From Acidobacteriota bacterium (GTDB taxonomy: Bacteria > Acidobacteriota > Terriglobia > Terriglobales > Acidobacteriaceae): a DNA stretch of 55,667 nucleotides. Position numbers and translations under genes: made by a program. Where the stretch lies: positions 1-55,667 of the forward strand of contig JAJYUB010000023.1 of NCBI GenBank assembly GCA_021792795.1, given 5' to 3'. Positions 3,430-48,018 of this stretch are shown here, piece by piece. Numbering within the stretch: position 1 is the stretch's first letter; every line of letters starts with the position of its first letter. Below the pieces are notes generated by a model. It was not told the origin of the DNA and did not search any database. It saw only the letters and a list, made by a program, of their open reading frames with translations.

Positions 3430-5730
3430 ATGGTTGCACTTCTCCTTGGCGCAAGCGCCGCATTCGCGCAAGGCCCGAAGCAGGTTCCCTATACCTGGAA
3501 GAGCGTCCAGATTGTCGGCGGCGGGTTCGTGGATGGAATCATCTTCCATCCAACGGCGAAAGATGTGCGCTACGCCCGTACAGACATGGGAGGCGCCTAC
3601 CGCTGGGATGCGACCCCTCATCGCTGGCACCCGATCCTGGACTGGGTGCCGTATGTAGATCGCAATCTTATGGGAATCGAATCGATTGCAGTCGATCCTT
3701 CGGACCCGAACCGCGTCTATCTGGCGTGCGGCACCTACACGAACGCCAACACTCCGAATGGCGCGGTCCTTCGCTCGGACGACCGTGGCCATACCTTCCA
3801 GCGCGCCAATGTGCCCTTCAAATTTGGCGGCAATGAGGACGGCCGCGGCAATGGCGAGCGGCTGGATGTCGATCCGCTGGACGGGCGTGTGCTTTACTTG
3901 GGCACGCGTCATGACGGACTCTGGCGCTCCCACGACCGAGGCGTGACCTGGGCGCGCGTCACCAGTTTTCCCGATGTAAAGGAGGCGGTTCCGCCCGCCC
4001 CGCCGCTGCAACCGGGCGAGACGCGGCGGCATTACTGGCAACGGAGGCCGGTCCGTGGCAGCGGCATCGTCTTTGTCAAGTTCGGCGCACCCACCGCCGC
4101 GTATCGAAAGGACCATCCCAGCCAGACGATCTATGTCGGCGTCTCGCTGATGGATCGTTCCAATCTTTTCGTTTCGACCGACAGGGGCGATAGCTGGCGC
4201 GCCATTCCGTGGGAGCCCCTCCACTATCGGCCGACGCGGGCTGCGCTTTCGTCGGACGGATTTCTATACGTCGTCTACGGCACCGCTCCCGGCCCCAGCC
4301 GCATGACCGATGGAGCGGTGTGGAAGCTGGACACGCACACCGGCGCATGGACTGACATCACTCCGGACCGCCCGGTCGCCGGAGTCAAAGAGTTTGGATA
4401 TGCGGCTGTCTCCGTCGATGCGCAGCATCCGCGCACGTTGATTGTCAGTTCCTTTGGCCGTTCGGTATCGGCAGGCGGTGAGGACATTTTCCGCTCGACC
4501 GATGGCGGAGCGAGTTGGAAGACCATCTTTCATGGGCGAGGCGACGCCAACGGCGTTTACGATTACAGCCTTGCGCCCTATGTGAAGGCCACGCCCATCC
4601 ACTGGCTCTTCGATGTCGAAATCGATCCGAACAACCCGGACCACGCCATGTTTACGACCGGCTACGACGGATGGGAGACCTTCGACCTGACGATGTCGGA
4701 CCGCGGCAAGCCAACGCACTGGAGCGACATGGCGTCGGGCATTGAGGAGACGGTCGCGCTCCAATTGAACAGCCCCGGCCAGGGGGCGCATCTCATTACG
4801 GCAATCGGAGACTATGGTGGTTTCGTCCACTGGGACCTCGACCGCCCTGCCCCTGAGGGTTCATCCGCGCCGCCACGCTTCGGCAACACCACGGGAGTCG
4901 CTTCCGCCACTCTGCGCCCCCAGGCGATTGTGCGCGTTGGCACCAGTGCGGAGCACAAGCCGGACGAAAATATCAGCTACTCGCTCGATGAAGGCCGCAC
5001 TTGGCAAGGCACCGCTGCAACGCCGAAGCCAGGCAGCCGTTTCGGCTCGATTGCCGTCTCGGCGGACGGAAAAACCTGGGTCTGGACGCCGGAGGGCTCT
5101 CCGTCCTACGTTACGCGCGACCTGGGAGCAACGTGGGCCTCATCGACGGGCCTTCCCGCCAATCTCCAGGTCATCGCCGACCCGATCGCGCCCCAAACCT
5201 TCTATGCCTATGCGATTTCCCTCGCGGATCAAACGGTATTTCGCAGCACGGACGGCGCGGCAACATTCAGCGCGCAGAAGTTCACGCTGTCCGATGGACC
5301 ATTCGCGCTTGGCCAGTCTTCACGGGGCGATCCACGAGGTGGTCAAGACCGGCTCTATTCCGCTCCCGGACGAGCCGATGACTTGTGGTTCGCAGCCTTC
5401 AGTGGGCTCTACCATGCCGCGTCGGTTTCGTCCGCGACAAGCGCGAACGACATTTCTTTCACTCGAATGCCCGGAGTTACGGATATCCAGGCGTTCGGTT
5501 TCGGCAAAGCTGCGCCGCACCGGGCCTGTCCCGCAATGTACCTGGTGGGGACGGTGCAGGGTCAGCCGGGCATCTTCCGCTCGATCGACGAGGGGCAGAA
5601 CTGGGCGCGGATCAACGATGACCAGCACCAATGGGGGCTGGTCTTGCAAATTAGCGGCGATCCCCGGTCATACGGGCGCGTTTATGTCGGCACCCACGGC
5701 CGAGGAACGGTCTACGGGGATCCTCGGTAG
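3430..5730 (+). CDS. Secreted GH74 xyloglucanase
   Basis: This 766-residue protein is predicted to cleave the beta-1,4-glucan backbone of xyloglucan. It has a short signal peptide ending near AFAQ and two seven-bladed propellers built from BNR-like repeats (SxDRGxTW and variants). YARTDMGGAYRWD contains the likely first catalytic Asp (D52), and FDVEIDPNNPD contains the likely second (D399), as in GH74 enzymes. The length agrees with a single GH74 module and no carbohydrate-binding domain. The start at 3430 gives a rather short signal peptide, and the frame remains open upstream, so a more distal non-ATG start is possible. It lies directly after GH27 and forms the endo-acting core of the locus. 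Confidence 0.9.
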   Translation: MVALLLGASAAFAQGPKQVPYTWKSVQIVGGGFVDGIIFHPTAKDVRYARTDMGGAYRWDATPHRWHPILDWVPYVDRNLMGIESIAVDPSDPNRVYLACGTYTNANTPNGAVLRSDDRGHTFQRANVPFKFGGNEDGRGNGERLDVDPLDGRVLYLGTRHDGLWRSHDRGVTWARVTSFPDVKEAVPPAPPLQPGETRRHYWQRRPVRGSGIVFVKFGAPTAAYRKDHPSQTIYVGVSLMDRSNLFVSTDRGDSWRAIPWEPLHYRPTRAALSSDGFLYVVYGTAPGPSRMTDGAVWKLDTHTGAWTDITPDRPVAGVKEFGYAAVSVDAQHPRTLIVSSFGRSVSAGGEDIFRSTDGGASWKTIFHGRGDANGVYDYSLAPYVKATPIHWLFDVEIDPNNPDHAMFTTGYDGWETFDLTMSDRGKPTHWSDMASGIEETVALQLNSPGQGAHLITAIGDYGGFVHWDLDRPAPEGSSAPPRFGNTTGVASATLRPQAIVRVGTSAEHKPDENISYSLDEGRTWQGTAATPKPGSRFGSIAVSADGKTWVWTPEGSPSYVTRDLGATWASSTGLPANLQVIADPIAPQTFYAYAISLADQTVFRSTDGAATFSAQKFTLSDGPFALGQSSRGDPRGGQDRLYSAPGRADDLWFAAFSGLYHAASVSSATSANDISFTRMPGVTDIQAFGFGKAAPHRACPAMYLVGTVQGQPGIFRSIDEGQNWARINDDQHQWGLVLQISGDPRSYGRVYVGTHGRGTVYGDPR

Positions 5731-7462: not shown

Positions 7463-9682
7463 ATGCGTTTGTTCGTTCTGTTGCTGCTTGCGGGATTGGG
7501 TCTTCCCACGCTGTCCGTCGCGCAAAATCAAACCCAGTATCCATTTCAAAACCCCAACCTGCCGACAGACCAGCGCATTGACAATCTGCTTTCCCTGATG
7601 ACCCTGCAGGAAAAGATCGATGCTCTGGGCACCGACCCGGATGTGCCGCGGCTGGGCGTCCATGGCTCCGGGCATATCGAAGGGCTGCATGGCGTGGCCC
7701 TCGGCGGACCTGGAGGCTGGGGCCGCGTATTTCCCGCCGGCGTCAAGCGCGGCACCCCAGGCGTTCGTCCGCTGAACAAGCCCCTGGAAACGACTCAATT
7801 TCCCCAGGAGGTGGGTCTGGGCGAAACCTGGGACACCGCTCTTCTTGAGCAGGCAGCCCGAGAGGAAGGAATCGAGGCACGCTACATTTTTCAAAGCAGT
7901 GGCCGAGGCGGAATCGTAGTCCGAGCGCCGAATTTGAACCTGGAGCGCGATCCTCGCTGGGGGCGCTCCGAGGAGTCCATGGGAGAAGATCCGTACTTCG
8001 TCGGGACCATGGGCACGGCGTTTGTACACGGCCTCCAGGGGAACGATGGCCGCTACTGGCAAACAGCTTCCCTGCTGAAGCATTTTGTGGCCTACAGCAA
8101 CGAAACCGACCGCAGCGGCTCTTCCTCCAATTTCGACGCCCGTTTGCTGCATGAGTACTACACGGTCGGCTTTCGCATGGCCATCGAGCAGGGCGGCGCC
8201 AATGCCTACATGACCAGCTATAACGCGGTGAATGGCGTTCCCATGACCGCCAATCCCATGCTGAAAGATCTGACCATGAGGAAATGGGGCTTTAACGGCA
8301 TCATCTGTACGGATGCCGGCGCGCTGACGTTTATGGTCACGGCGCACAAGTACTCCGCCAACATGGACGAAGCGGCGGCGGCCGCTATCCACGCAGGCAT
8401 TAACCAGTTTTTGGACAAATATCGCCCCGCGGTCGAAGGCGCATTGCAGAAAAAGCTGATTACGGAAGCCGACCTCGACGAAAACCTGCGAGGGGTCTAT
8501 CGCGTCATGATTCGGCTTGGTCTGCTCGATCCGCCCAGTTTGGTCCCGTATACATCCATCAATGACAAGAACGGTCCCGAGCCATGGAAGGCCGACGCAA
8601 CCAAGCAGCTCGCCTTGCATGTGACGGAGGAATCCATCGTCCTGCTGAAGAATTCCCACCATGCGCTCCCGCTGGACATGTACAAGCTGAAAACCATTGC
8701 CGTGATTGGTCCGCGCGCGGATGAGGTTGACCTGGACTGGTATAGCGGAACTCCTCCATTTGTGATCACGCCACTACAGGGCATCAAGAGCTATGTTGGA
8801 TCGGCGGTACAAGTGAACTATGCGCTGGACAACACAAATGGCGCGGCGGCGCAAGCGGCAAAATCATCCGACGTGGCCATCGTTTTTGTCGGCAACCAGC
8901 CGACCTGCGGGATGGGCTGGGGCCACTGCCCCGATCCGACAGAGGGCAAAGAGGCCTTCGACCGCAAATCGATCGGCATGAACCCCGACCAGGAAAAGTT
9001 GATCGAGGATGTGTATGCGGCCAACCCACGAACGGTCGTCGTGTTAGTTTCTAGTTTCCCCTACACCATCAACTGGGCGCAGGAACATGTTCCCGCCATT
9101 CTCCATATGGCCCACAACAGCGAAGAGGAAGGCCCCGCGATCGCGAATGTCTTGTTCGGCAAGTACAATCCCGGCGGGCATCTGGTCGTAACCTGGCCGA
9201 AATCGATCGGCCAATTGCCGCCGCTGATGGACTACAACATCCGCGATGGCCGCACCTATATGTACTTCAAGGGGCAACCGCTCTACCCGTTCGGCCATGG
9301 ATTGAGCTATACGAAGTTTGGGTATTCCAGCCTGGACATCAGTTCCCCGGCCCTCAAAAATGACGGACAAGTGACGGTCAGCGTAAATGTCACGAACCAG
9401 GGCGAGCGGGCCGGAGATGAAGTTGTTCAGATGTATGTGCAGTATCCGGACTCCAAGGTATCGCGTCCGCGGGAGCAGTTGCGCGGCTTTCAGCGCGTCC
9501 ATCTGGAACCCGGCGCGAGCCAAACGGTGCGCCTGCCGCTGCAAGCCAAGGATCTGGCATATTGGGACGAGGCCGCCGGGCATTTTGTCGTGGAACCGGG
9601 TACAGTCAACATCCTGATCGGCAGCTCATCTGCAGACATTCGTCTGCGAGGGTCGATTCTCGTAGCGAAAGCGCAACCTTGA
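7463..9682 (+). CDS. Secreted GH3 beta-glucosidase / beta-xylosidase
   Basis: This 739-residue exo-glycosidase starts at the ATG preceded by GAGG; the frame is open further upstream but only this start yields a clean signal peptide (residues 1-20, ending VAQ). The (beta/alpha)8 domain contains the predicted nucleophile D284 in IICTDAGAL, where many family members have SDW. An alpha/beta domain (LLKNSHHALPLD ... AVIGPRAD) and a C-terminal fibronectin-like domain (VNVTNQGERAGDEVVQMYV) follow, as usual for GH3. It would trim glucose or xylose from oligosaccharides released by GH74. GH31 begins 29 bases downstream, so the two form an operon. Confidence 0.88.
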   Translation: MRLFVLLLLAGLGLPTLSVAQNQTQYPFQNPNLPTDQRIDNLLSLMTLQEKIDALGTDPDVPRLGVHGSGHIEGLHGVALGGPGGWGRVFPAGVKRGTPGVRPLNKPLETTQFPQEVGLGETWDTALLEQAAREEGIEARYIFQSSGRGGIVVRAPNLNLERDPRWGRSEESMGEDPYFVGTMGTAFVHGLQGNDGRYWQTASLLKHFVAYSNETDRSGSSSNFDARLLHEYYTVGFRMAIEQGGANAYMTSYNAVNGVPMTANPMLKDLTMRKWGFNGIICTDAGALTFMVTAHKYSANMDEAAAAAIHAGINQFLDKYRPAVEGALQKKLITEADLDENLRGVYRVMIRLGLLDPPSLVPYTSINDKNGPEPWKADATKQLALHVTEESIVLLKNSHHALPLDMYKLKTIAVIGPRADEVDLDWYSGTPPFVITPLQGIKSYVGSAVQVNYALDNTNGAAAQAAKSSDVAIVFVGNQPTCGMGWGHCPDPTEGKEAFDRKSIGMNPDQEKLIEDVYAANPRTVVVLVSSFPYTINWAQEHVPAILHMAHNSEEEGPAIANVLFGKYNPGGHLVVTWPKSIGQLPPLMDYNIRDGRTYMYFKGQPLYPFGHGLSYTKFGYSSLDISSPALKNDGQVTVSVNVTNQGERAGDEVVQMYVQYPDSKVSRPREQLRGFQRVHLEPGASQTVRLPLQAKDLAYWDEAAGHFVVEPGTVNILIGSSSADIRLRGSILVAKAQP

Positions 9683-9711
9683 GCAAGTAGTTTCTGTCGG
9701 AGGAAGATATT

Positions 9712-12111
9712 GTGCTGCATCGACCCACCGGAATTTTTGGCACTCGCCCCACCCTTCTAATCTCTTGCCTCTTCTTGTCGTCCGCCGCGCTGATGGCGCA
9801 GACCGGAGTCGTCGTCACCAAAACTACAGTCGGGGCGACGGTCAGGACACCTACGGACACACTGCACCTGACGGTGTGCGGCGCCACCTCTGTGCATGTT
9901 GTGGGCGCACCCAATGCGGAAAACAATGGCAACGTGCTGGCCGGAACTCCAAAAGAGCCATGGATGGTCGACGCTTGCACGCCGGCCAAATTTACGCTCG
10001 ATATTCCAGCGAATCTCCCGGCAGCGTCGCCGCAGAAACATTTGTGGAACCCCGTCGTCGCCACTCTGGACACGGGAAAGGTGCGTGTACGCATCTCGCT
10101 CGACGCAGGCAGCCTTGAATTCCAGGACGAGCAGGGGAACAGACTGCTGCAGGAATTTCAGGACCGGCCTCGCACCTATCGGCCTATGACCCGCAATGGA
10201 GAGGCAATGTACAGCGTCGAGGACCGCTTCTATCCGGCCGTTCGGGAGGGGCTCTACGGGCTGGGGCAACACCAGAATGGCGTCTTCAACTATCGCGGCA
10301 CGGTCGTCGAGTTGGCACAGGCCAATACAGATGTGGACATTCCGCTGCTGGTCTCTACAAACGGTTATGGAATTTTCTGGAACTCGGCGGCGATTTCTTA
10401 TTACGACAATCGCTTCCCTTCGGAAATGCGCTTTAGCTCCAATGCCTCCCACGCCATCGATTATTACTTTCTCTATGGTCCGGAAATGGACCAGATTGTC
10501 CATCAATATCGCGTCATGACGGGCCACGCGCCCATGTTTCCGGAATGGGCCTACGGCTTTTTTCAGTCGAAAGACCGCTATCGAAGCTCGGCGGAATTAT
10601 TGAATATCGCGAATGAATATCGCGGCCAGCATGTTCCGCTGGACGCGATTGTGCAGGACTGGTTCTGGTGGGTGAAACAGGGCGACCCGGAGTTCCGCCC
10701 CAATGCCTACCCGAATGTTACTGAAATGTTGCATCGACTCCATGACGAGAACGTCCATGCCATGTTGAGCGTCTGGGCCGTCTTTAATCCGCAATCGAAA
10801 AACTTTCAAGAGATGAAGCAACGCGGACTGATTGTTCCCGGGACCACCGACTACGATGCTACAAACCCTGCGGCAGGAACTTTCTACTGGAACCACTTGG
10901 TCGGCAAGCTGTTCGCGCAAGGCTGGGACGCGTTCTGGCTCGATAGCTCCGAGCCGGAAATCGCCTACCCGCACGGCGGCGAAAGCGATGCTTCGTTGGA
11001 AGACAAGCAGTTATTCATCGGCAACGGCGCCCTTTATACAAATATTTTCCCGTTGATGCACACAGGAAACGTCTATCGGCACTGGCGTGAGACAACGGAC
11101 AAGAAGCGCGTTTTCATCCTGACTCGATCCGGGTTCGCGGGCCAGCAACGGAATGCGGCGACAACGTGGTCGGGAGACGTTTTCAGCACCTTTTGGGCAT
11201 TCTCCAGGCAGGTGCCCGCAGGGTTGAATTTCGCGCTCTCAGGCATGCCTTACTGGACGACCGACATCGCCGGATACGGACCGCCGCTGGCGCGCGACAC
11301 ACACGACCCGGCGTACCAGGAACTGTACACGCGTTGGTTTGAGTATGGCGTCTTCTGTCCCATTTTCCGTACCCATGGCCACCGCGCCAATAATGAGAAC
11401 GAACTTTTCTCCTATGGGCCCGTCACCCCCATTCTCATCCGCTATGACACGTTGCGCTATCGTCTGATGCCCTACATCTATTCTCTGGCGTGGCAGGTAA
11501 CAGACCGCGACTCCACCATCATGCGGCCACTCGTCATGGATTGGCGAACAGACCCGAACACCTGGAACATCGCCGACCAGTTTATGTTTGGACCGGATCT
11601 GCTGGTCAGTCCAGTCACGCGAAAAGGAGCTACGAGTCGCTCACTTTACTTGCCCGCTTCTCCGGCGTGGTATGACTTCTGGACTGGAGAAAAAACGAAC
11701 GGCGGCCAGCGGATCGAAGCCAGCGCCGCGCTCGACCGCATCCCTGTCTACGTGCGCGCGGGATCGATCCTGCCACTGGGGCCGGAAATCGAGTGGGCAG
11801 GCGAGAAACCGGCTGCGCCTATCGAGCTGCGGATCTATCGCGGCGCCGATGGCAGCTTCCAACTGTACGAGGATGCGGGAGACACCTATGCCTACGAGAG
11901 GGGCGAGCACTCGGTCATTCCAATCCACTGGAATGAAGCGACAAAAACTTTGACCCTTGGCGCTCGGGAAGGATCATATCCGACAATGGTGGCGCAACGG
12001 ACGTTCGACGTCGTCTTTGTCGGAGCAGACCATGGTGCCGGCGCTGAGGCGACCGCAAATCCCGACAAGCAGATTCAATACAGCGGCAGCGCAATGACAG
12101 TGACGCCGTAA
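9712..12111 (+). CDS. Secreted GH31 alpha-xylosidase-like enzyme
   Basis: This 799-residue protein starts at GTG behind a GGAGGAAG ribosome site and has a signal peptide ending near ALMAQ. The predicted nucleophile is D411 in FWLDSSEPE and the acid/base is D489 in TTWSGDVF, both characteristic of GH31. The order is an N-terminal beta-sandwich, a catalytic barrel, and C-terminal beta-domains (proximal and distal). GH31 enzymes in xyloglucan loci remove alpha-xylose from the non-reducing end, and that is the likely role here next to GH74 and GH3. Alpha-glucosidase activity cannot be excluded from sequence alone. Confidence 0.87.
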   Translation: MLHRPTGIFGTRPTLLISCLFLSSAALMAQTGVVVTKTTVGATVRTPTDTLHLTVCGATSVHVVGAPNAENNGNVLAGTPKEPWMVDACTPAKFTLDIPANLPAASPQKHLWNPVVATLDTGKVRVRISLDAGSLEFQDEQGNRLLQEFQDRPRTYRPMTRNGEAMYSVEDRFYPAVREGLYGLGQHQNGVFNYRGTVVELAQANTDVDIPLLVSTNGYGIFWNSAAISYYDNRFPSEMRFSSNASHAIDYYFLYGPEMDQIVHQYRVMTGHAPMFPEWAYGFFQSKDRYRSSAELLNIANEYRGQHVPLDAIVQDWFWWVKQGDPEFRPNAYPNVTEMLHRLHDENVHAMLSVWAVFNPQSKNFQEMKQRGLIVPGTTDYDATNPAAGTFYWNHLVGKLFAQGWDAFWLDSSEPEIAYPHGGESDASLEDKQLFIGNGALYTNIFPLMHTGNVYRHWRETTDKKRVFILTRSGFAGQQRNAATTWSGDVFSTFWAFSRQVPAGLNFALSGMPYWTTDIAGYGPPLARDTHDPAYQELYTRWFEYGVFCPIFRTHGHRANNENELFSYGPVTPILIRYDTLRYRLMPYIYSLAWQVTDRDSTIMRPLVMDWRTDPNTWNIADQFMFGPDLLVSPVTRKGATSRSLYLPASPAWYDFWTGEKTNGGQRIEASAALDRIPVYVRAGSILPLGPEIEWAGEKPAAPIELRIYRGADGSFQLYEDAGDTYAYERGEHSVIPIHWNEATKTLTLGAREGSYPTMVAQRTFDVVFVGADHGAGAEATANPDKQIQYSGSAMTVTP

Positions 12112-38788: not shown

Positions 38789-39418
38789 TCAGGCGGCCAC
38801 TGCCGGGGTCTCGGTTGCGCTGACCGGTCCCTCCTCCATGCGCAGATACATTCGCTCCATCCACTCCCGATTGGTTTCCATCGGCAGCACCGTGACCAGC
38901 CGCAGGCACGACTGCTCATGAGGAAACACCCGGACCACTCTGGTCCGCCGCTTCGACTCCTGGTTCTGCCGCTCCAACATGTTCGTCGTGCGCATCCGCT
39001 TGCGATGCGCTTCCGGCAGCGCGTAGACGCCAAGGATTTCTTCCCCGTGTTCTTCCAGCAACCGCGCCACCCTGGGAGCTTTTTTCTCCAACTCCGCGAT
39101 GGCCACTGCCAGCGCCGCCCTGGCCGCTTCGCGTGTCGCGGCTTCGGTCACCGCCTTCATCGGCCGCAGCACCTGCGGACGCTGCTGCCGACCGCACAGA
39201 CTCAACGCGTTGCGCAGGAAGTGTACCTGGCACCGCTGCCACACCGCGCCTTGAAGGTGCCGCTCGATCGCCTTCACCATGCCGGCATGATCGTCGCTCA
39301 CCACATACTGCACAGCGCGCAAGCCGCGCTGCTTCAGATCGCTGAACACCGCGCCCCAATTGGCCTCCGACTCCGACTCGGCAATCCACGCGCCCAGCAC
39401 CTCGCGGTAGCCCGCCGC
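38789..39418 (-). mobile_element. IS256-type transposase remnant (3' part)
   Basis: The frame encodes GYREVLGAWIAESESEANW, VVSDDHAGM, WQRCQVHFLRN and TNMLERQNQESKRR, the second Asp, C/H motif and catalytic Glu region of IS256 (mutator) transposases. The N-terminal half with the first catalytic Asp is missing, so it cannot transpose by itself. The frame continues without a stop into IS110-type sequence upstream. Downstream, a GAAACTTTCGGGCTTGACTG stretch near 38679-38700 (minus strand) may be the element end. Confidence 0.8.
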
Positions 39419-39637
39419 GCACTCGACTCCCAGCTCGGCCAACTGCCAGTAGAGAACGTAGCCCGTCGGGCGGCCTGTAGCAGGCACGCGGTTGCTCCAC
39501 CGCGCCCAGCTTCTTCACCAGCTTGGGATCGGCTCCGCGCGGTTGGCGATCGTTCCCAGGCTGCGCACTTCGCCATGCGCCTCGGCAATCGTCTCGGCAT
39601 GGACATCCAATCCCAAAAATCGTGCCTTTTCCTTCAT
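39419..39637 (-). mobile_element. IS110-type transposase remnant (5' part), frameshifted
   Basis: From an ATG at 39637 the sequence reads KEKARFLGLDVHAETIA, then SLGTIANR, KLVKKLGAVEQ and PTGYVLYWQLAELGVEC, in three successive frames. This is the DEDD-type N-terminal region of IS110 transposases, including the LDVHAETI part with a catalytic Asp. Two frameshifts and a small deletion disrupt it. It joins IS256-derived coding sequence at 39418/39419. Confidence 0.75.
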
Positions 39638-40028
39638 GACCGGTCCCTCTCCGCTTGTGGCCCTGCGCCGTGATTCGTTTCCGATTCACAGCCTAACCCA
39701 CGACCAGCGCATTGGGCCGGTCACTCCATTTTGACTAGTGTTGCCGCTCGCAACTACACGCATTTCACTGCCTTGACAACGCCTTCGTCCTTATCGAGGG
39801 CCACCCTCGGATTTTCTCCGCTGCGGCGCAGCCGCTTTCCGCTTGGATCGCGTCTCCCAGTAGTATAGGATTCTTACTTGAGTAGATGAAGCGCTGGCGA
39901 TTCGTCAGCAACCCTCCTGAACAATATTTTTGCAATACCAATCGTGGCCGGACACAGTCGGGACCGCCTTCTGAACCAGGGAAGCGTCCGCGTGCCCAGG
40001 CCCCGGAAACGAGCGGAAACGAGCAAAA
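39638..40028. other. Gap: possible IS110 end, then purA upstream region
   Basis: The first 90-100 bases lie where IS110-family elements keep their non-coding end, which in active members encodes a bridge RNA. I cannot delimit such an RNA here. From about 39740 the sequence is ordinary intergenic DNA up to purA with no gene. A TTGACAACGCC stretch at 39774 recurs at 41584 on the other side of purA. Confidence 0.35.
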
Positions 40029-41950: not shown

Positions 41951-42709
41951 TTACTGCGAGGAAGATCCTTCTACGAGCGACAAGTCTCGCCCGAGACTGG
42001 TCAAATCGAAACCAGACGGGGACACCTGATCGCTGCCAACCCAGTCGGAGCTGAGCACAGCGTAGGTTTCAACGTTGTAACAGCCGTAAAATTCCCAGCT
42101 CATGGTCTTGAGCGCGCCCCAGGTAACCACGTAGATGCCGTCTTCACCGTAGCCGACGGCCGTAACGCAATGGCCGTTCGCAAGCTGGGGAGCGGCGTCC
42201 TCCGGTGCGACCGAGGCGGGAATCGCCCACGGAATTTGAGGCCAACCGGTGGGGTCCCCCGCCAAGACAAACTTTGGCAGATCGAGCCCGACGTACGCGC
42301 TCCCGAACAGGTAAACGATGCCGCGCAACTCGTCCGCATCCTGTGCCTGCGCTTTGACAAAGGAGTGGACGCGATGCTTGCCAATGCCGGTCTTGCGCCA
42401 GTATTTTAGAGCGTCGAGCATGGAGACGCAGTCCATCAGCCGGTCTCCAGTGAGGTGGGCGTGGGCACGGATGACGTCTGCATCGGTAAGAAAGACACCC
42501 CGCCGATTGGCCGCAGTCCAGTGATGCACCATGTGGCCGGCGGCCGCGGAGGTGCAGCAATTGAATTGATTGTTTGCCAGCATCGGCCACGACGTAGTGG
42601 TCTCCAGCAACTCCTTGGCTGGCGGCGTCGGCAGTGAGGCGATCTTGACGTAGTCTGCCAGGTGCAGGGTCCTAGAATCGTGTTCCGACTGTACTCTGCC
42701 GAGTTTCAT
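41951..42709 (-). CDS. Papain-fold (C1-like) cysteine peptidase
   Basis: The start ATG has a perfect GGAGG site that lies inside the end of the kinase gene (38-base overlap), so the two are translationally linked. The 252-residue product has no signal peptide. NNQFNCCTSAAAGHMVH aligns with the Gln and catalytic Cys region of papain-type peptidases, and NGHCVTAVGYGEDG with the catalytic His. The position of the catalytic Asn (papain NSWG) reads VTWG, so a triad Asn is not evident. It could be a peptidase, a transamidating enzyme or a non-catalytic relative. In this operon it is a candidate for cutting the modified small peptide. Confidence 0.65.
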   Translation of the reverse strand: MKLGRVQSEHDSRTLHLADYVKIASLPTPPAKELLETTTSWPMLANNQFNCCTSAAAGHMVHHWTAANRRGVFLTDADVIRAHAHLTGDRLMDCVSMLDALKYWRKTGIGKHRVHSFVKAQAQDADELRGIVYLFGSAYVGLDLPKFVLAGDPTGWPQIPWAIPASVAPEDAAPQLANGHCVTAVGYGEDGIYVVTWGALKTMSWEFYGCYNVETYAVLSSDWVGSDQVSPSGFDLTSLGRDLSLVEGSSSQ

Positions 42710-45095
42710 TGTGCCTCCTATGGGTAGAAGGATGGGCCAGCTTCATGCGGTCGAGCAATCGCTGGTAGCGGGGGTCGTCGTGGAGGTCCCGGAGACTGGG
42801 CAGCACCGTGACATAGGCCACCAAAATGTCATGCATGTCCGCAGCTTTCTCCAGCCAGGTGAAAGCGAGATCATGTTCGCCGAGAGAAACTGCGGCGACG
42901 GCGATCGCCACCGGCATCCGATTGCCTTTGTTCGCCAGATCGAGAAGATTGGCGAGGACCTCGCGGGCCTTGTCATGGTTCCCATTCTGCGCATGGGCCT
43001 CCGCAAGCCAGCCCAGCAAAACAGGCATGCGGCTGTGCTCAATGCCGCGCTGGAAGGTGGCGACCGCTTCGTGCGCGCGCCCTGAAAAGGACTGTGCCAA
43101 CCCCAGCGAATAATACAGTTCAAAATAATGCGGAGAAGAGGTGAGCGCGGTCTGCGCCAGCAGGATGCTGCTGTCGTGGTCGCCCAAGTATGTCCGCAGT
43201 ATCGCTTCTGCAGCCAGCAACGGAGTCGAAAGTGGATCGTAGCGAAGTCCGATGCGTACCTGCTCCAGTGCGTCCTGCAGCATTCCTTGCGTCATCAGAT
43301 GACAAACATACAGGTAGTACGACTCGCCACGCTGGGGACGCAACTCAATCGCCTTCACAATATGGTCGCGCGCACCGATCCAATCCCAGTCGTAGAACTG
43401 CAGCACGGAGGCCAGCGCCAGGCGGCCTTCCGGAAGGTCCGGATCGAGCGCAACGGCCTGTAGCGCGGAGGAGCGCGCGATGGGCCATGCCTGATCGGGT
43501 GCCATCAGGCCGAGGGTCCCCTGCAGGCAATAAAAATCGGCCACTCCGGCATACGCCGCGGCGGAGTTTGGGTCCAGTTTGAGGGCCTGCTCAAAATAAC
43601 GGCCAGCGAGCTGAACGTCCTCAATCGTCCTTTGTCCCCAATGGTAGCGGCCTTTCAGGTACGCCTCGTATGCCTCGGTCTGCATCGGCGTCCTTGTCTG
43701 AAGATCGGATTGGCGAAGATTGAGCGAGAGCTTTTCCCGCAAGGCAGAAACCACCGCCGTCGCCAGCTCATCCTGCAACTCGAATACGTCCGCCATCTCC
43801 CTGTCAAACCGGGACGACCAGATATGAAATCCCTTGCGCACGTCGGTGAGCTGCATGGTGATGCGAATACGCGCTCCGGAACGGCGCACACTGCCCTCCA
43901 GAATCACGTCGACATCCAGCAGCTTGCCAATTTCGCGGATATTTTGAGGTTTCCCTTTCAATGAAAAAATCGAGCTTCGAGAGACAACGTGCAACCCAGG
44001 GAGTGTCCCCAGAGCATTGATCAATTCGTCCGTGAGACCGTCGCTAAAATATTCGTTCTCCTGGTCGGAGCTGACATTCTGCATCGGCAGCACAGCGATC
44101 GAGGAACTTCCTCGGTCGGGCTGGATCGGAGAGGAGCGGGCCGTCGCAGCGGCGCCGCTCGCCGGGTGCTCTCGGAATGTCCCGGTCTCGGCATCCCAGG
44201 CGTCACGGAAGCCCATGGAGACGGTAGGCGCAAGGCTGGCAGGCTTGATGGCCGCCGGCATCGGCGCTTCACCGACATTCTCGCTTAACAGGCCCAGGAT
44301 CTCGGCAGCTGAGGAATGGCGCTGGTGCGGTTGCAGCCGCAATGCGCCCTCCACTGCAAGGTGGATGGAACTGGGCAGATCGGGCCGGGCATGGTGCAGC
44401 GGAACGTAACGTCCGGCGGCGATGGCTGTCATGGTTGCGGACTGTGTCGCCTGCCGGAAGGGGGAATGCCCCGTCGCCATTTCGTAGATCACGACTCCGA
44501 GCGCCCATATGTCCGCGCGATAATCCACCGGCTCCCCGGCAAGCTGCTCCGGCGGCATGTAGGCAAGCGTGCCCATCACTTTGTGCGGCGCGGTCAGTTG
44601 TTGCTGATGAGCGATGCGGGAAAGCCCAAAGTCGAGAATCTTTACGGTGCCGGAGTCCAGCAGGAAGATGTTTCCTGGCTTGATGTCGCGATGCACAATG
44701 CCCGACATGTGCGCGGCGTGCAGCCCAAAGGCAGTTTGCCGCCCAATGTCGCGGATACTGGAGACCTTGATCGGGCCGTCATTGAGTCGCTGGGAGAGGG
44801 TCTGACCGCGGTAATAGGCCATCACCAGCAACAGTGAACCGTCCGGAGCTGTCTCGACGGTATAGATGGTGCAGAGGTTCGGGTGGTCCATGGCCGAGGC
44901 GGCGCGCGCCTCGCGCAGAAATCGTTCGCGCATCTCGATGTCTTCAGAGATCGACGGCTGCAGCACCTTGATCGCGACCGTGCGTTGAAGCCGGATGTCC
45001 TCTGCCTCGAAGACAACGCCCATTCCCCCTTCGCCAAGCTTTCTGACAAGGCGATATTGAAGAAGTTCGTCTCCGGGACTGAAGGCCATCTGCAT
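42672..45095 (-). CDS. Hanks-type Ser/Thr kinase with TolB-like and TPR regions
   Basis: The ATG at 45095 lies one base after the stop of the preceding gene, which implies coupled translation. The 807-residue product has a kinase domain (about residues 5-275: LGEGGMGVVFEAED, VAIKV, HRDIKPGNIF, DFGLSR, MPPEQL). A disordered linker follows, then a TolB-N-like domain (SIAVLPMQNVSSDQENEYFSDGLTDEL, about 330-480) and a TPR-rich C-terminus. No membrane helix is obvious. Such kinases with TPR ends are common in Acidobacteria. Here it may sense a state of the cell and control the peptide cluster or phosphorylate its proteins; the target is unknown. Confidence 0.88.
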   Translation of the reverse strand: MQMAFSPGDELLQYRLVRKLGEGGMGVVFEAEDIRLQRTVAIKVLQPSISEDIEMRERFLREARAASAMDHPNLCTIYTVETAPDGSLLLVMAYYRGQTLSQRLNDGPIKVSSIRDIGRQTAFGLHAAHMSGIVHRDIKPGNIFLLDSGTVKILDFGLSRIAHQQQLTAPHKVMGTLAYMPPEQLAGEPVDYRADIWALGVVIYEMATGHSPFRQATQSATMTAIAAGRYVPLHHARPDLPSSIHLAVEGALRLQPHQRHSSAAEILGLLSENVGEAPMPAAIKPASLAPTVSMGFRDAWDAETGTFREHPASGAAATARSSPIQPDRGSSSIAVLPMQNVSSDQENEYFSDGLTDELINALGTLPGLHVVSRSSIFSLKGKPQNIREIGKLLDVDVILEGSVRRSGARIRITMQLTDVRKGFHIWSSRFDREMADVFELQDELATAVVSALREKLSLNLRQSDLQTRTPMQTEAYEAYLKGRYHWGQRTIEDVQLAGRYFEQALKLDPNSAAAYAGVADFYCLQGTLGLMAPDQAWPIARSSALQAVALDPDLPEGRLALASVLQFYDWDWIGARDHIVKAIELRPQRGESYYLYVCHLMTQGMLQDALEQVRIGLRYDPLSTPLLAAEAILRTYLGDHDSSILLAQTALTSSPHYFELYYSLGLAQSFSGRAHEAVATFQRGIEHSRMPVLLGWLAEAHAQNGNHDKAREVLANLLDLANKGNRMPVAIAVAAVSLGEHDLAFTWLEKAADMHDILVAYVTVLPSLRDLHDDPRYQRLLDRMKLAHPSTHRRHNETRQSTVGTRF

Positions 45096-45096
45096 A

Positions 45097-45840
45097 TCAG
45101 AACTCTCTGGACTGGGAAGCGATTGCGACTCCGGGAGAGGTAAAAATTGTCGCGGCACTTGCTGGATCGTCAATGCGCACGAAGTGCTCCAGAACATCGG
45201 AGAACACATGTTCGAGATGAGCGATGGTCGCGATGGCGCTGGCGGTAATCAGGTCCTGATGGCGCGGAAGCAGCGGCAGCGAATCCAGGGCCGCATCGAA
45301 CTCCGCGACGTGGCCCGGATCCAGCCTGGCATGCATGACGTGACACGACATGGAGGCGAGGGGAATGCCGGTACGCAGGGAAACTTCCTCCAAAAATTCG
45401 ATCAACGTGGGCGCTTCCAGTACGGCAATGTATCCCAAATAGGCGATCGGATGAACATGAAACATCCAGTAATACTGCACGCCCACCAACGCAGCAACGC
45501 TGGCATAGGGCAACCGCTGCAGCACTCGTTGCCGCGGCACGCCCAGGGAGGCAAGATCGTTCAGCAGCCACTGCTCATGGCCCGCTTCCTCTTCGGCGTG
45601 TTCCAAATAGTAATCACGGAGCCATGCAGCGAGCGGACCGTCTGCCAACTCGGCAGAGCAACGCTCCGCAGCGGTCCGCATCGCAGGGGCTGAACTGACA
45701 GTCACTCCGTAGATGGCAAAGAGAAATTCCGGGTAGAGCTCGTTTAGCCTTGGGTGAAACCATACGTCATGGATCAAGGAACTGAGGCGTCCCCGAAAAA
45801 TAGACACTGTTTCGCGCAGACGTTGACTATGCGTCGTCAT
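45097..45840 (-). CDS. Heme-oxygenase-fold (HDO / PqqC-TenA-like) enzyme
   Basis: The 247-residue, all-helical product starts at an ATG behind GGGGAG. The EHAEEEAGHEQWLLND segment (about residues 80-95) and the later CHVMHARLDPGHVAEFD (about 165-181) carry the Glu/His and Asp/His pairs expected of heme-oxygenase-like diiron oxidases. Members oxidise amino-acid or fatty-acid-like substrates, and some act in peptide natural-product pathways. The ligand pattern can be seen but metal and reaction are inferred. It lies between the small peptide (64 bases before) and the kinase (coupled after). Confidence 0.7.
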   Translation of the reverse strand: MTTHSQRLRETVSIFRGRLSSLIHDVWFHPRLNELYPEFLFAIYGVTVSSAPAMRTAAERCSAELADGPLAAWLRDYYLEHAEEEAGHEQWLLNDLASLGVPRQRVLQRLPYASVAALVGVQYYWMFHVHPIAYLGYIAVLEAPTLIEFLEEVSLRTGIPLASMSCHVMHARLDPGHVAEFDAALDSLPLLPRHQDLITASAIATIAHLEHVFSDVLEHFVRIDDPASAATIFTSPGVAIASQSREF

Positions 45841-45904
45841 GCCGTCTCCCCGGCAATCCTGGCGCTGCCCGGAACTTTGCGGACAGCTACCTGCGAGTTC
45901 TCAG

Positions 45905-46108
45905 TTAGAGCGCCAGTGTTCCCATACGATGGGAATCGCCGTCTTGCACCTTGCGCTGGAAAAAGTCGTCGCCCAGCTTGACGCGCACGGAGATCAAAGC
46001 GTCAATTTCCGCCGCGCTAAGTTGGTTGACACTCTGCACCTCGGCATCCGTCAGGGGGTGATGGATTTGGACAAGTCCAGCCTGTTGCAGCCTCTCTACA
46101 TTGGTCAT
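45905..46108 (-). CDS. Small cysteine-free peptide, candidate RiPP precursor
   Basis: The ATG at 46108 follows AAAGGA at a good distance, giving 67 residues; a longer in-frame version to 46180 lacks such a site. The N-terminal two thirds look like a structured leader (VERLQQAGLV, LTDAEVQSVNQLSAAEIDAL, ISVRVKLGDDF). The last part is short and polar with one Ser and one Thr (DGDSHRMGTLAL) and could be a core. It contains no Cys, so lanthionine rings cannot form. The LSxxEIDxLISVxxKL pattern resembles short proteins that I recall as 'aroma-sacti cluster' peptides, but this needs a profile search. Its place directly after a LanM-like gene supports a substrate role. Confidence 0.6.
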   Translation of the reverse strand: MTNVERLQQAGLVQIHHPLTDAEVQSVNQLSAAEIDALISVRVKLGDDFFQRKVQDGDSHRMGTLAL

Positions 46109-46193
46109 ATACGGTCCTTTCAACGTTGAAGCGCACAACCCATCCATCACAGCGCGCTCAATACATCCGAATCTTAGCACACAATTTCAGGAT

Positions 46194-47978
46194 TCATTTC
46201 AGACTCAGAATCGACGTTAAGAGGGCCGGGACCTGGATGTTCTCAATGCTTTCGGTGGACAGTCCCTCGATCTGTCCTAGGACCGGCTGGGCCGGAGTAC
46301 AGGCCGCGAAGCCGCGCGCAATTGGACGCCCGGAGCTGTTCGCCAGCGTGCGGCTGTCCGGCAAAACGACCAGGCGAGGGACGTGCATGTGCAGTAGCGC
46401 AGTCGTCTCTGTACGCAGCAACGACCAGGGCAGCCCGGCAGATGTCTCGGTATCAAGTCCGGAGAGAATGGCGTTCCGGCGCCGGTACCAGGAGTGAAGA
46501 TACCGGGGCCCCAGAGACCGGCCCAGCAACAATCCATACGATAGAGTGTCGCGCACCACCATGCGCGGCGCATGCGCCTTCTCCAGTACCGCGCGCCAGC
46601 GCGCACCGGGCCCGATGAGGGTTTCCCGTCCGCGCATCAGGAGTTCCGCGGCATGACGATATCCGCTCAACATCCGCGGCAGCACTGCGATGGCCGTTGT
46701 TTGGTTCGGCGTGTTGGGATGGGCGACGAGTTCGGCGTCCACGGAGATCAAATGATAGCGACCCTCCGGCGATACGGCCCATCCTGGAAGCTCCACTCCC
46801 GGCACGGGCGTGGCGTGTCCGAATAATCCTGAGATGTCCGGTTGATCGGAAACACGCCCGATTGGGAGCAAACCGGTGCTGACAATGGATTCCAAAGCGC
46901 CCGCAATCGCGGCATTTTCCAGTGAAGTTTCTGTACCTGGGCGAACAGGAAGATTCGGCGTTGCAAGGCATTCGGCATCGGTCACCGCCGGTCCCCAGGG
47001 GGTAGCGACGATATTGCCGAGGTGAAGATCGGTCAGCCGCGCATGTTGCGCCAGGCATAGCATGGCCCCGGCCGCATGCCAATAATCCAGCACAGGCATT
47101 GAATCGCCGTTCGACCTCTCGTTGGAATTTTCAGAGAGCGAGTTTTCTTCTGGAAACACAGATTCTGCCCAACCGTAATGGAACCTGACATCGTTCGTCA
47201 GCACTCGCGCGGAGGGCAAGCGCAGTTCAGGATCGAGGCGGGCGATCGCTACGAGCAGCGCATGCCAGAGCCACTCTCCTGTGACTGGACGGGGCTTGTA
47301 ATACAGACACCCTCCTCCCACGAAGCCGACGCGCAGCACGGAATGACCGCCGGCGTGAGCGTCCGAGGTGGTTTCGCAGATGGATTCGATGGGGGGCAAG
47401 GCGGTCAGTTGCAGCGCCGCGGCAATCCATTGTCGGTCTCGATGCAGCCGCTCCAGAAATGTAACCGTGGCAGTTACCCACTCGGAAACGACGCTCCCGA
47501 TGAGCGACAACAGCAGCGGGAACTTGCGGAACAGGTCGCTCGCAACCGGCGACGCAGGCTGCTCTTCTGCATCGAGGCAGCTAGCGCCAACCGCCTGTGT
47601 AAGAACGCCAAGGAGCCGGTCCTTGAGAAGGAGAAGCAGCGAGTCCAGCGGAATGGGTTCCCCGCGAAAGGCCCGCTGCTCTGGTGGAACTCGCTGTTTC
47701 AGTCGATCGGATGCGGTGGCAAGCCAAGGCCCTAGCAGCGCTTCCATGATTGGAGGCAGGTTTCCTGCAAATGCCGCATCGTCACTGGGGAATGAAAGGG
47801 GCCCCACGCCTGTTGAGGGAACGGGTCGCAGCGTACCTCGATGACCGACAACCAGCAGTACGGCATCGTTGTTCCGCTGGTCGAACGGTCCAATATTTGC
47901 CATGAAATCACGCACGCCGGTGTTGCGAGTATCCATCAGAATTTCCGGGCAGAATTTCCGGGAACTCGCGCCTGTCAT
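46194..47978 (-). CDS. LanM-like lanthipeptide dehydratase without a cyclase domain
   Basis: The product has 594 residues from the ATG at 47978 (AGGGCG just before it); starts at 47999 (TTG) or 47936 are possible. It resembles the DUF4135 dehydratase part of class II lanthipeptide synthetases. The kinase-like ATP site is visible: LYYKPRP near residue 228, TDLHLGNIV near 316, and TDAECL near 333. The spacing of these Lys, Asp/Asn and Asp residues agrees with LanM enzymes. These phosphorylate Ser/Thr and then eliminate phosphate to give dehydro-residues. LanM proteins normally continue with a zinc LanC cyclase of about 400 residues; here the protein ends without it. The small peptide gene follows 85 bases later. 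Confidence 0.78.
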   Translation of the reverse strand: MTGASSRKFCPEILMDTRNTGVRDFMANIGPFDQRNNDAVLLVVGHRGTLRPVPSTGVGPLSFPSDDAAFAGNLPPIMEALLGPWLATASDRLKQRVPPEQRAFRGEPIPLDSLLLLLKDRLLGVLTQAVGASCLDAEEQPASPVASDLFRKFPLLLSLIGSVVSEWVTATVTFLERLHRDRQWIAAALQLTALPPIESICETTSDAHAGGHSVLRVGFVGGGCLYYKPRPVTGEWLWHALLVAIARLDPELRLPSARVLTNDVRFHYGWAESVFPEENSLSENSNERSNGDSMPVLDYWHAAGAMLCLAQHARLTDLHLGNIVATPWGPAVTDAECLATPNLPVRPGTETSLENAAIAGALESIVSTGLLPIGRVSDQPDISGLFGHATPVPGVELPGWAVSPEGRYHLISVDAELVAHPNTPNQTTAIAVLPRMLSGYRHAAELLMRGRETLIGPGARWRAVLEKAHAPRMVVRDTLSYGLLLGRSLGPRYLHSWYRRRNAILSGLDTETSAGLPWSLLRTETTALLHMHVPRLVVLPDSRTLANSSGRPIARGFAACTPAQPVLGQIEGLSTESIENIQVPALLTSILSLK

Positions 47979-48018
47979 TCGCCCTGAATCCGTACGCAAC
48001 AGATCGATGGATCCCGGC

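Follow-up and report, generated by a model that had tools for sequence, protein, structure and literature searches.

Five genes on the minus strand of a contig from an Acidobacteriota bacterium probably specify a RiPP-type pathway, to which we assign a probability somewhat above even (roughly 0.55). In this pathway, Ser59 and Thr64 of a small peptide would be dehydrated, a heme-oxygenase-like diiron enzyme (HDO) would oxidize or desaturate a residue in the tail of the peptide, and a leader would be removed. The genes lie in a stretch of 55,667 nucleotides (contig JAJYUB010000023.1), which is called the window here. Because the LanC domain and Cys residues in the precursor are both missing, we class the locus as RiPP and not as lanthipeptide. 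The five-gene cluster resembles a more elaborate offshoot of a simpler module of peptide, oxidase, and kinase, which recurs in Acidobacteriota and may gain new enzymes along with a new peptide tail.

From the predicted functions, we infer the following scheme. A core module comprising a leader-bearing peptide, HDO, and a kinase/TPR protein would have gained a cyclase-free LanM-type dehydratase and a papain-like protein. Residues 3-47 of the peptide would be the leader. The dehydratase would phosphorylate Ser59 and Thr64 in the tail sequence GDSHRMGT and then eliminate phosphate, yielding Dha and Dhb. With no Cys in the peptide and no LanC domain in the enzyme, these could not close into thioether rings. 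HDO, with O2 and a diiron centre, would oxidize or desaturate a tail residue, the papain-like protein would cut off the leader, and the kinase/TPR protein would sense or regulate.

Organization and distribution of the locus

All five open frames were confirmed on the minus strand, in the tight order given in the initial annotation: dehydratase, peptide, HDO, kinase, and papain-like gene. The one-base gap that it described separates the HDO stop from the kinase ATG (45095), and the 38-base overlap is shared by the kinase and the papain-like gene (kinase end 42672, papain-like ATG 42709). Two other genomes have this order between different flanking genes, so it is not due to chance.

The same five genes were indeed found elsewhere in Acidobacteriota, as the initial annotation had proposed to check. 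Acidipila rosea DSM 103428, the sole relative in a scan of named genome contigs, carries all five in the same order between different flanks. In genome G404, the dehydratase is followed by approximately 2.7 kb with other open frames and then by the peptide, HDO, kinase, and papain-like genes. A search of 61 near genomes matched two, the window's own and G007. One G007 contig ends within the dehydratase, and a second carries the kinase C-terminus followed by the papain-like gene; the HDO and peptide were not found in this genome, which is 72% complete. Three genomes therefore have the five genes in order and a fourth has parts of the set on two contigs, and this recurrence supports the RiPP-type reading.

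When the dehydratase was sought in 399 genomes of the class, nine gave some match. Two of these (G000 and G404) have the dehydratase family of the window, two (G256 and G134) have a different short stand-alone DUF4135 protein, and the matches in the remaining five (G063, G067, G099, G291, and G318) lie in full-LanM-like open frames of 800-1093 aa. Because a limited number of first-look candidates was scored per genome, the genome searches reported here may have missed some representatives.

Among the five proteins, Pfam and NCBIfam searches revealed no transporter, which we count against the RiPP-type reading, and no radical SAM or PqqD-like protein; Pfam revealed no YcaO protein. A role in defence was considered separately. 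A PADLOC scan of the dehydratase, HDO, kinase, and papain-like protein (the peptide was excluded) returned kinase-domain models for the kinase only, the best being PD-T4-6 (E = 5.9e-78), and so gives no specific support to such a role.

A core module of peptide, HDO, and kinase

The initial annotation treated the five genes as the basic unit, and this view had to be revised. The core consists of three genes, for peptide, HDO, and kinase, and most genomes that have it lack the dehydratase and papain-like genes. Among the 399 class genomes, 10 gave a match to a peptide model of two rows, and in eight of these the tail is a different one. The loci around the matches show the order peptide, HDO, and mostly kinase. 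An HDO profile built from ten loci and searched in the same 399 genomes (E <= 1e-10) matched 18, of which 15 are strong (E <= 1.2e-67); nine of these 15 match by construction, because they are rows of the profile. A related peptide is located directly upstream in all 15 strong loci. Ten of them are in genomes with a peptide-model match, and in the other five (G022, G088, G282, G340, and G344), the upstream peptide was found on reading. Three weaker matches (G357, G403, and G418; E = 2.5e-14 to 7.3e-18) lack a peptide of this kind in the stretches read and were excluded from the 15. The profile matches in G270 and G344 cross one stop codon; the frames themselves have lengths of 227 and 231 aa, respectively.

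Of 10 genomes from the window's genus, three matched the peptide model: the window's own, G003, and G005. The latter two have the three-gene module with the tail MRPNFPV, and the search of near genomes gave no dehydratase match in either. In a sample of the phylum, 9 of 396 genomes matched, three of them outside the class. One of these (G644) has peptide, HDO, and kinase; another (G773) has a cyclase/TPR protein after the peptide and HDO (TIGR04510, 255.7 bits, under the cut-off of 400); and in the third (G676), the peptide is beside GoxA- and GoxB-like genes, with no HDO within the stretch read.

The peptide and its tails

The proposed precursor is a Cys-free peptide of 67 aa (45905..46108, minus strand), with the sequence AAAGGA six bases upstream of its ATG. 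The initial annotation had noted this frame, and it is kept in two other genomes. The peptide behaves as a real gene, given its 91% identity to the Acidipila rosea homologue and 64% to that of G404, and a pS of 0.38 versus a pN of 0.05 between the window and Acidipila. A further idea, that the peptide is exceptionally conserved relative to its enzymes, was ruled out: its identity to the G404 homologue lies in the range of 62-64%, as does that of HDO, the kinase, and the papain-like protein.

Residues 3-47 (45968..46102, minus strand) comprise a leader-like domain matching NF045560 (E = 5.5e-5). The RiPP-like character claimed for the peptide thus finds a basis in a leader domain, although the score of 23.3 bits is under the curated cut-off of 30, and this shortfall counts against the RiPP-type reading. 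NF045560 matches all 16 peptides scanned at E <= 0.01 (15 from the class sample, plus Acidipila; the G003 and G005 peptides were left out), and the three peptides from other classes match at the same threshold. The leader match in 16 of 16 peptides and the presence of the peptide upstream of every strong HDO locus support a RiPP-type pathway.

The proposed core is the tail octapeptide GDSHRMGT (residues 57-64; 45917..45940, minus strand), which contains Ser59 and Thr64. It is identical in the three dehydratase-linked peptides and absent from the 17 other HDO-linked peptides. Among all 20, three tails consist of GDSHRMGT plus three residues, 13 are of the type P-N-[FI]-[PFG]-[VI], and four are of other types. 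The C-terminal residue is V, I, L, F, or Y in every case, and beyond this hydrophobic end, the tails have no residue in common. Each of the three dehydratase-linked tails has one Ser and one Thr, both invariant. Many tails of peptides without a dehydratase also have Ser or Thr, and we count this against the RiPP-type reading. The three dehydratase-linked peptides have no Cys, which fits the missing cyclase and is not special evidence for it. Cys is absent from 18 of the 20 HDO-linked peptides, including 15 of the 17 without the GDSHRMGT tail, so its absence was rejected as a mark of the dehydratase variant, and its being so common is a further point against the RiPP-type reading.

The dehydratase and papain-like genes go with the GDSHRMGT tail. 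PF13575 was sought in 18 genomes that have NF045560-type peptides, and matches were found in G000, G404, and G773, the last in a 1200-aa frame on a different contig. The 13 class genomes whose peptides carry other tails gave no match. The papain-like profile matched only G000 and G404 among the 18. The dehydratase and peptide thus vary together, as the initial annotation had suggested they might, and the tie of both added genes to this tail supports the RiPP-type reading. However, the compared genomes are related, so the association does not represent 13 independent events, which weakens the case. The dehydratase variant probably arose once, to judge from its HDOs: those of the window, Acidipila, and G404 form one branch with support of 100/100. 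This single branch is also consistent with a RiPP-type pathway and supports it.

The kinase and its neighbours

The kinase (42672..45095, minus strand) contains HRDIKPGN and DFG motifs, and matches to Pkinase (E = 1.7e-50) and to TPR models in its C-terminal part agree with the earlier description of a Ser/Thr kinase with TPR parts. It is 84% identical to its Acidipila homologue and 64% identical to that of G404. A kinase-domain protein is encoded next in 12 of the 15 class loci; G282 keeps the TPR part only, and no such protein is encoded on that strand in G340 or G382. Because a cyclase/TPR protein occupies its place in G773 and in Sinorhizobium fredii, the kinase most likely regulates. Four genomes (Acidipila, G007, G003, and G005) have a gene for an FHA/GAF/SpoIIE-type phosphatase beside the module; the other stretches among the 26 compared, that of the window included, have none. 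This gene may be a mere neighbour of the module.

Alternatively, the kinase, with the phosphatase at these four loci, might constitute a phospho-signalling unit, and the peptide might be a small adaptor whose N-terminal domain binds HDO and whose conserved C-terminal tail docks on another protein. The uniformly hydrophobic tail ends would be possible for docking tails, and the frequent kinase neighbour, the phosphatase genes, and the lack of a transporter among the five proteins are in line with this idea. We nonetheless consider it unlikely. NF045560 is, by NCBI naming, a domain of RiPP-type peptides; a related HDO is found within a YcaO-TfuA cluster (see below); the tail and the added dehydratase change together; and the window itself, like most stretches compared, has no phosphatase gene.

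The dehydratase

The stand-alone LanM-type dehydratase (DUF4135) occupies 46194..47903 on the minus strand. Its open frame covers 46194-47999, and its start is likely the ATG at 47903 (MANIGPF), which matches the start of the Acidipila homologue. The profile searches proposed in the initial annotation, with PF13575 (DUF4135) and PF05147 (LanC), upheld the description of a LanC-free, LanM-like dehydratase: the match to PF13575 (E = 2.7e-50) spans positions 1-374 of the 378 in the profile, and no LanC family was reported by Pfam or NCBIfam. The match to TIGR03897 (LanM) is limited to model positions 86-509 of 932 and scores 164.6, with a cut-off of 304. The motifs SDAHAGGH, YYKPR, TDLHL.N, TDAE, and RDTL.YG are invariant in the three genomes, and in a profile alignment with LicM2 (E = 2.3e-20), D.H, YYKPR, TDLHL.N, TDAE, and RDT..YG face the same LanM motifs. 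We take these residues to be the kinase and elimination residues of LanM, and their intactness supports the RiPP-type reading.

Of the five proteins, the dehydratase evolves fastest, which we count against that reading. It is 62% identical to its Acidipila homologue and 42% to that of G404, whereas the other four are 81-91% and 62-64% identical, respectively. Comparison of the window with Acidipila gives a pN of 0.22 and a pS of 0.60; the gene is under purifying selection, yet the loosest of the five. Its rapid change, together with the fact that the core module works elsewhere without a dehydratase, raises the possibility that the peptide and HDO form a real pathway in which the dehydratase does not dehydrate this peptide, because it has another target, only phosphorylates, or is drifting. 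We view this with more doubt still than the adaptor, given that the motifs are intact in three genomes, that selection acts against amino-acid change, and that the enzyme is confined to loci with the GDSHRMGT tail and its invariant Ser and Thr.

HDO

The HDO gene (45097..45840, minus strand) encodes a protein that matches PF14518 with 32.3 bits (E = 1.1e-7; cut-off 28.9). Residues E84, E85, H88, E142, H170, D174, and H177 are kept in all 20 sequences compared, and from the HDO literature, we presume that they include those that bind iron. An AlphaFold model (pLDDT 87.6) matches 3dde (E = 9.7e-8), UndA (E = 5.4e-5), TenA proteins, CADD, and HrmI, in agreement with the heme-oxygenase fold named in the initial annotation. 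By model and conserved residues, the protein has this fold and a diiron ligand set, with a putative O2-dependent diiron activity. The intact ligands support the RiPP-type reading.

CADD spends its own residue, and PqqC has the same fold as HDO. The peptide might serve as the starting material of a small cofactor or signal, like PqqA for PQQ, or be consumed by HDO, and although the CADD match and a precursor that is conserved between genera and not diversified would suit such a role, it is improbable in view of 20 tails that share nothing besides their hydrophobic end and of five proteins that include neither a radical SAM nor a PqqD-like protein.

HDO is 85% identical to its Acidipila homologue and 62% identical to that of G404. 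By comparison, it is only 37% identical to the HDOs of G003 and G005, which belong to the same genus, and this low identity suggests replacement or exchange of modules.

The papain-like protein

The candidate leader peptidase (41951..42709, minus strand) is 81% identical to its Acidipila homologue and 62% identical to that of G404. Its residues N46, C52, H180, and W197-G198 are invariant in five of five relatives and, in our judgement, resemble papain motifs. The Cys-His pair C52/H180 is thus kept in all five, and the papain fold named in the initial annotation found no confirmation in any profile: Pfam and NCBIfam gave no significant match, PDB profiles gave none at E <= 5, and an hhalign comparison with an S. 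medicae C1 peptidase was not significant (E = 0.075, probability 0.7%). Because of the lack of Pfam and NCBIfam matches, the term papain fold rests on the motifs, and the protein is a peptidase candidate on that ground. The AlphaFold model, made from an alignment of only five sequences, has a pLDDT of 31 and was left out of the fold search. That neither model nor profile confirms the fold is a point against the RiPP-type reading. The only database match is to phrog_19005, of unknown function (E = 4.7e-15), in a PHROGs scan of the window's papain-like protein, peptide, and dehydratase plus one paralogue, in which the two peptidase-like proteins alone matched. The family also stands alone: a member in G015, where the module is absent, is 38% identical.

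Relation to known systems

Like LanM enzymes such as LicM2, the window dehydratase has a DUF4135 domain with the catalytic motifs. Unlike them, it has no LanC domain and its TIGR03897 score is sub-cut-off, and the peptide beside it is Cys-free. The portion of PMC10676384 that was available reports that the excised LanM dehydration domains of three enzymes suffice for dehydration, a precedent that supports the RiPP-type reading. The same portion states that, in dehydrazoles, the DUF4135 domain of CcaM needs its own cyclase domain, which we count against it. Dehydrazoles (CcaM, carnazolamide) resemble the proposed pathway in that a DUF4135 dehydratase is used without making lanthionine. They differ in that CcaM, as described there, has a class III cyclase domain and acts after YcaO, and the five window genes have neither.

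HDOs in RiPP clusters are already known from the available sections of two papers (PMC6511847, PMC8120280). Deletion of varO left only two of four thiovarsolin compounds (PMC6511847), a second precedent in support of the RiPP-type reading, and the authors proposed that VarO is a dehydrogenase that introduces a double bond into an Arg side chain. An excerpt of a 2026 HDO review cites the VarO work for ribosomal peptide modification (PMC13108848). The window HDO might likewise target Arg, the residue suggested for VarO (PMC6511847); counted by eye, 13 of 20 tails have Arg among their last eight residues. Similarly, an HO-like gene is present in thioamide clusters of several Sinorhizobium species (PMC8120280). 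These systems share with the window an HO-like protein that acts, or is proposed to act, on a ribosomal peptide, and VarO is likened to the window HDO by protein type. In contrast to the window, they have YcaO-TfuA, according to the sections available; the window lacks these and has a free dehydratase.

The remark in the initial annotation that it knew of no characterized pathway with this set of genes needs qualification by these published clusters. Leader, HDO, and kinase together with a free dehydratase and a Cys-free peptide make a combination that was not found in the literature searched. In open-licence literature, we found no paper naming the NF045560 or TIGR04510 models and no LanM with a missing cyclase domain; queries combining HDO with lanthipeptide gave only the thioamide work, and HDO with RiPP gave nothing on point beyond it among the matches listed.

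We tentatively suggest, as something that could well prove wrong, that the locus represents a thioether-free RiPP class whose single Cys-free precursor is modified by both a free-standing LanM dehydratase and a diiron HDO. Such a class would be modular, with a fixed leader, HDO, and kinase- or cyclase-TPR protein, and with the tail and extra enzymes swapped together. If this is true, a LanM dehydratase would leave Dha and Dhb open beside an oxidized residue. In the boldest version of this idea, HDO would act on the hydrophobic C-terminal residue, for example by turning it into an enamide through UndA-like oxidative decarboxylation. Searches for lanthipeptides that take LanC-domain proteins as their starting point, as described in PMC7268733, would miss a locus of the window's kind.

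A related HDO occurs in a RiPP context outside the phylum. With a core-module HDO (L033) as query, 15 plasmid records matched; four of them reach a cover of 80% or more, all from Sinorhizobium fredii (35.6% identity, or 36% when rounded). In S. fredii SMH12, as read from an unannotated record, the HDO gene is divergent from genes for a 67-aa peptide, YcaO (PF02624, E = 1.2e-65), TfuA (PF07812, E = 1.5e-32), and a guanylate-cyclase/TPR protein. These clusters are probably those of PMC8120280, as far as its available sections go, and the related HDO in a YcaO-TfuA cluster supports the RiPP-type reading. The S. fredii peptide has no NF045560 match at E <= 0.05, and its N-terminal part aligns with the leader profile (hhalign E = 4.3e-5, probability 69.5%).

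Two NCBIfam models offer further likenesses. NF045560, the aroma-sacti domain, corresponds to the leader-like domain of the window peptide; unlike an aroma-sacti type sactipeptide system, the five proteins include no radical SAM protein, and the peptide scores below that model's cut-off. The peptide-modification cyclase TIGR04510 has a counterpart in the neighbour of HDO in the module, which is a kinase with TPR parts or, in G773, a cyclase resembling TIGR04510.

Genes adjoining the module

A gene encoding a phosphatase of the FHA/GAF/SpoIIE type adjoins the module in four genomes, Acidipila rosea and compared genomes G007, G003 and G005 (DNA stretches L002, at 8401-10008, L028, L089 and L090). 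The modules accompanied by this gene comprise either five or three genes, and gene orientation varies among them. In two genomes, the core peptide-HDO-kinase module adjoins genes for pro-kumamolisin type peptidases (PF09286; L062 of G022, 3760-5574, and L034 of G382, 9130-10833), which might take the place of the papain-like gene. Frames resembling quinoprotein dehydrogenases, recognized by eye, lie close to the module in three genomes (L069, 11-760; L060, 1679-3247; and L064, 6163-7737), although this proximity may be coincidental.

Within the window, a minus-strand transposase-like frame with an internal stop (38789-39700) separates the module from a regulator gene. Judged by eye only, it looks like a broken insertion element.

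Related peptides and clusters

The leader-like domain modeled by NF045560, which module peptides match, seems to be common to different oxidative systems. In G676, a genome outside the class, genes for GoxB-like and GoxA-like (CTQ enzyme) proteins directly adjoin an NF045560-type peptide gene, in place of the HDO gene (L081, 7614-10889).

The DUF4135 protein is also stand-alone in another acidobacterial cluster, present in G256 (L037, 5580-10741) and G134 (L038, 4752-9933). These proteins comprise 447 and 472 amino acids, respectively, and match PF13575 with E-values of 3.6e-67 and 7.7e-73. The associated peptides belong to the NHLP clan (NF038399, E-values of 6.9e-7 to 2.8e-13), and the clusters also encode a TPR-containing Ser/Thr kinase, along with an uncharacterized protein of 316-324 amino acids.

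Two loci were observed on Sinorhizobium plasmids. An unannotated S. fredii locus (L091, 1499-7684) encodes a peptide, YcaO, TfuA, and a cyclase/TPR protein, together with a divergent HDO. On pSymA of S. medicae (L092, 4235-8448), a full-length LanM family gene is divergent from a gene annotated as a C1 family peptidase, and the pair is flanked by IS66 elements.
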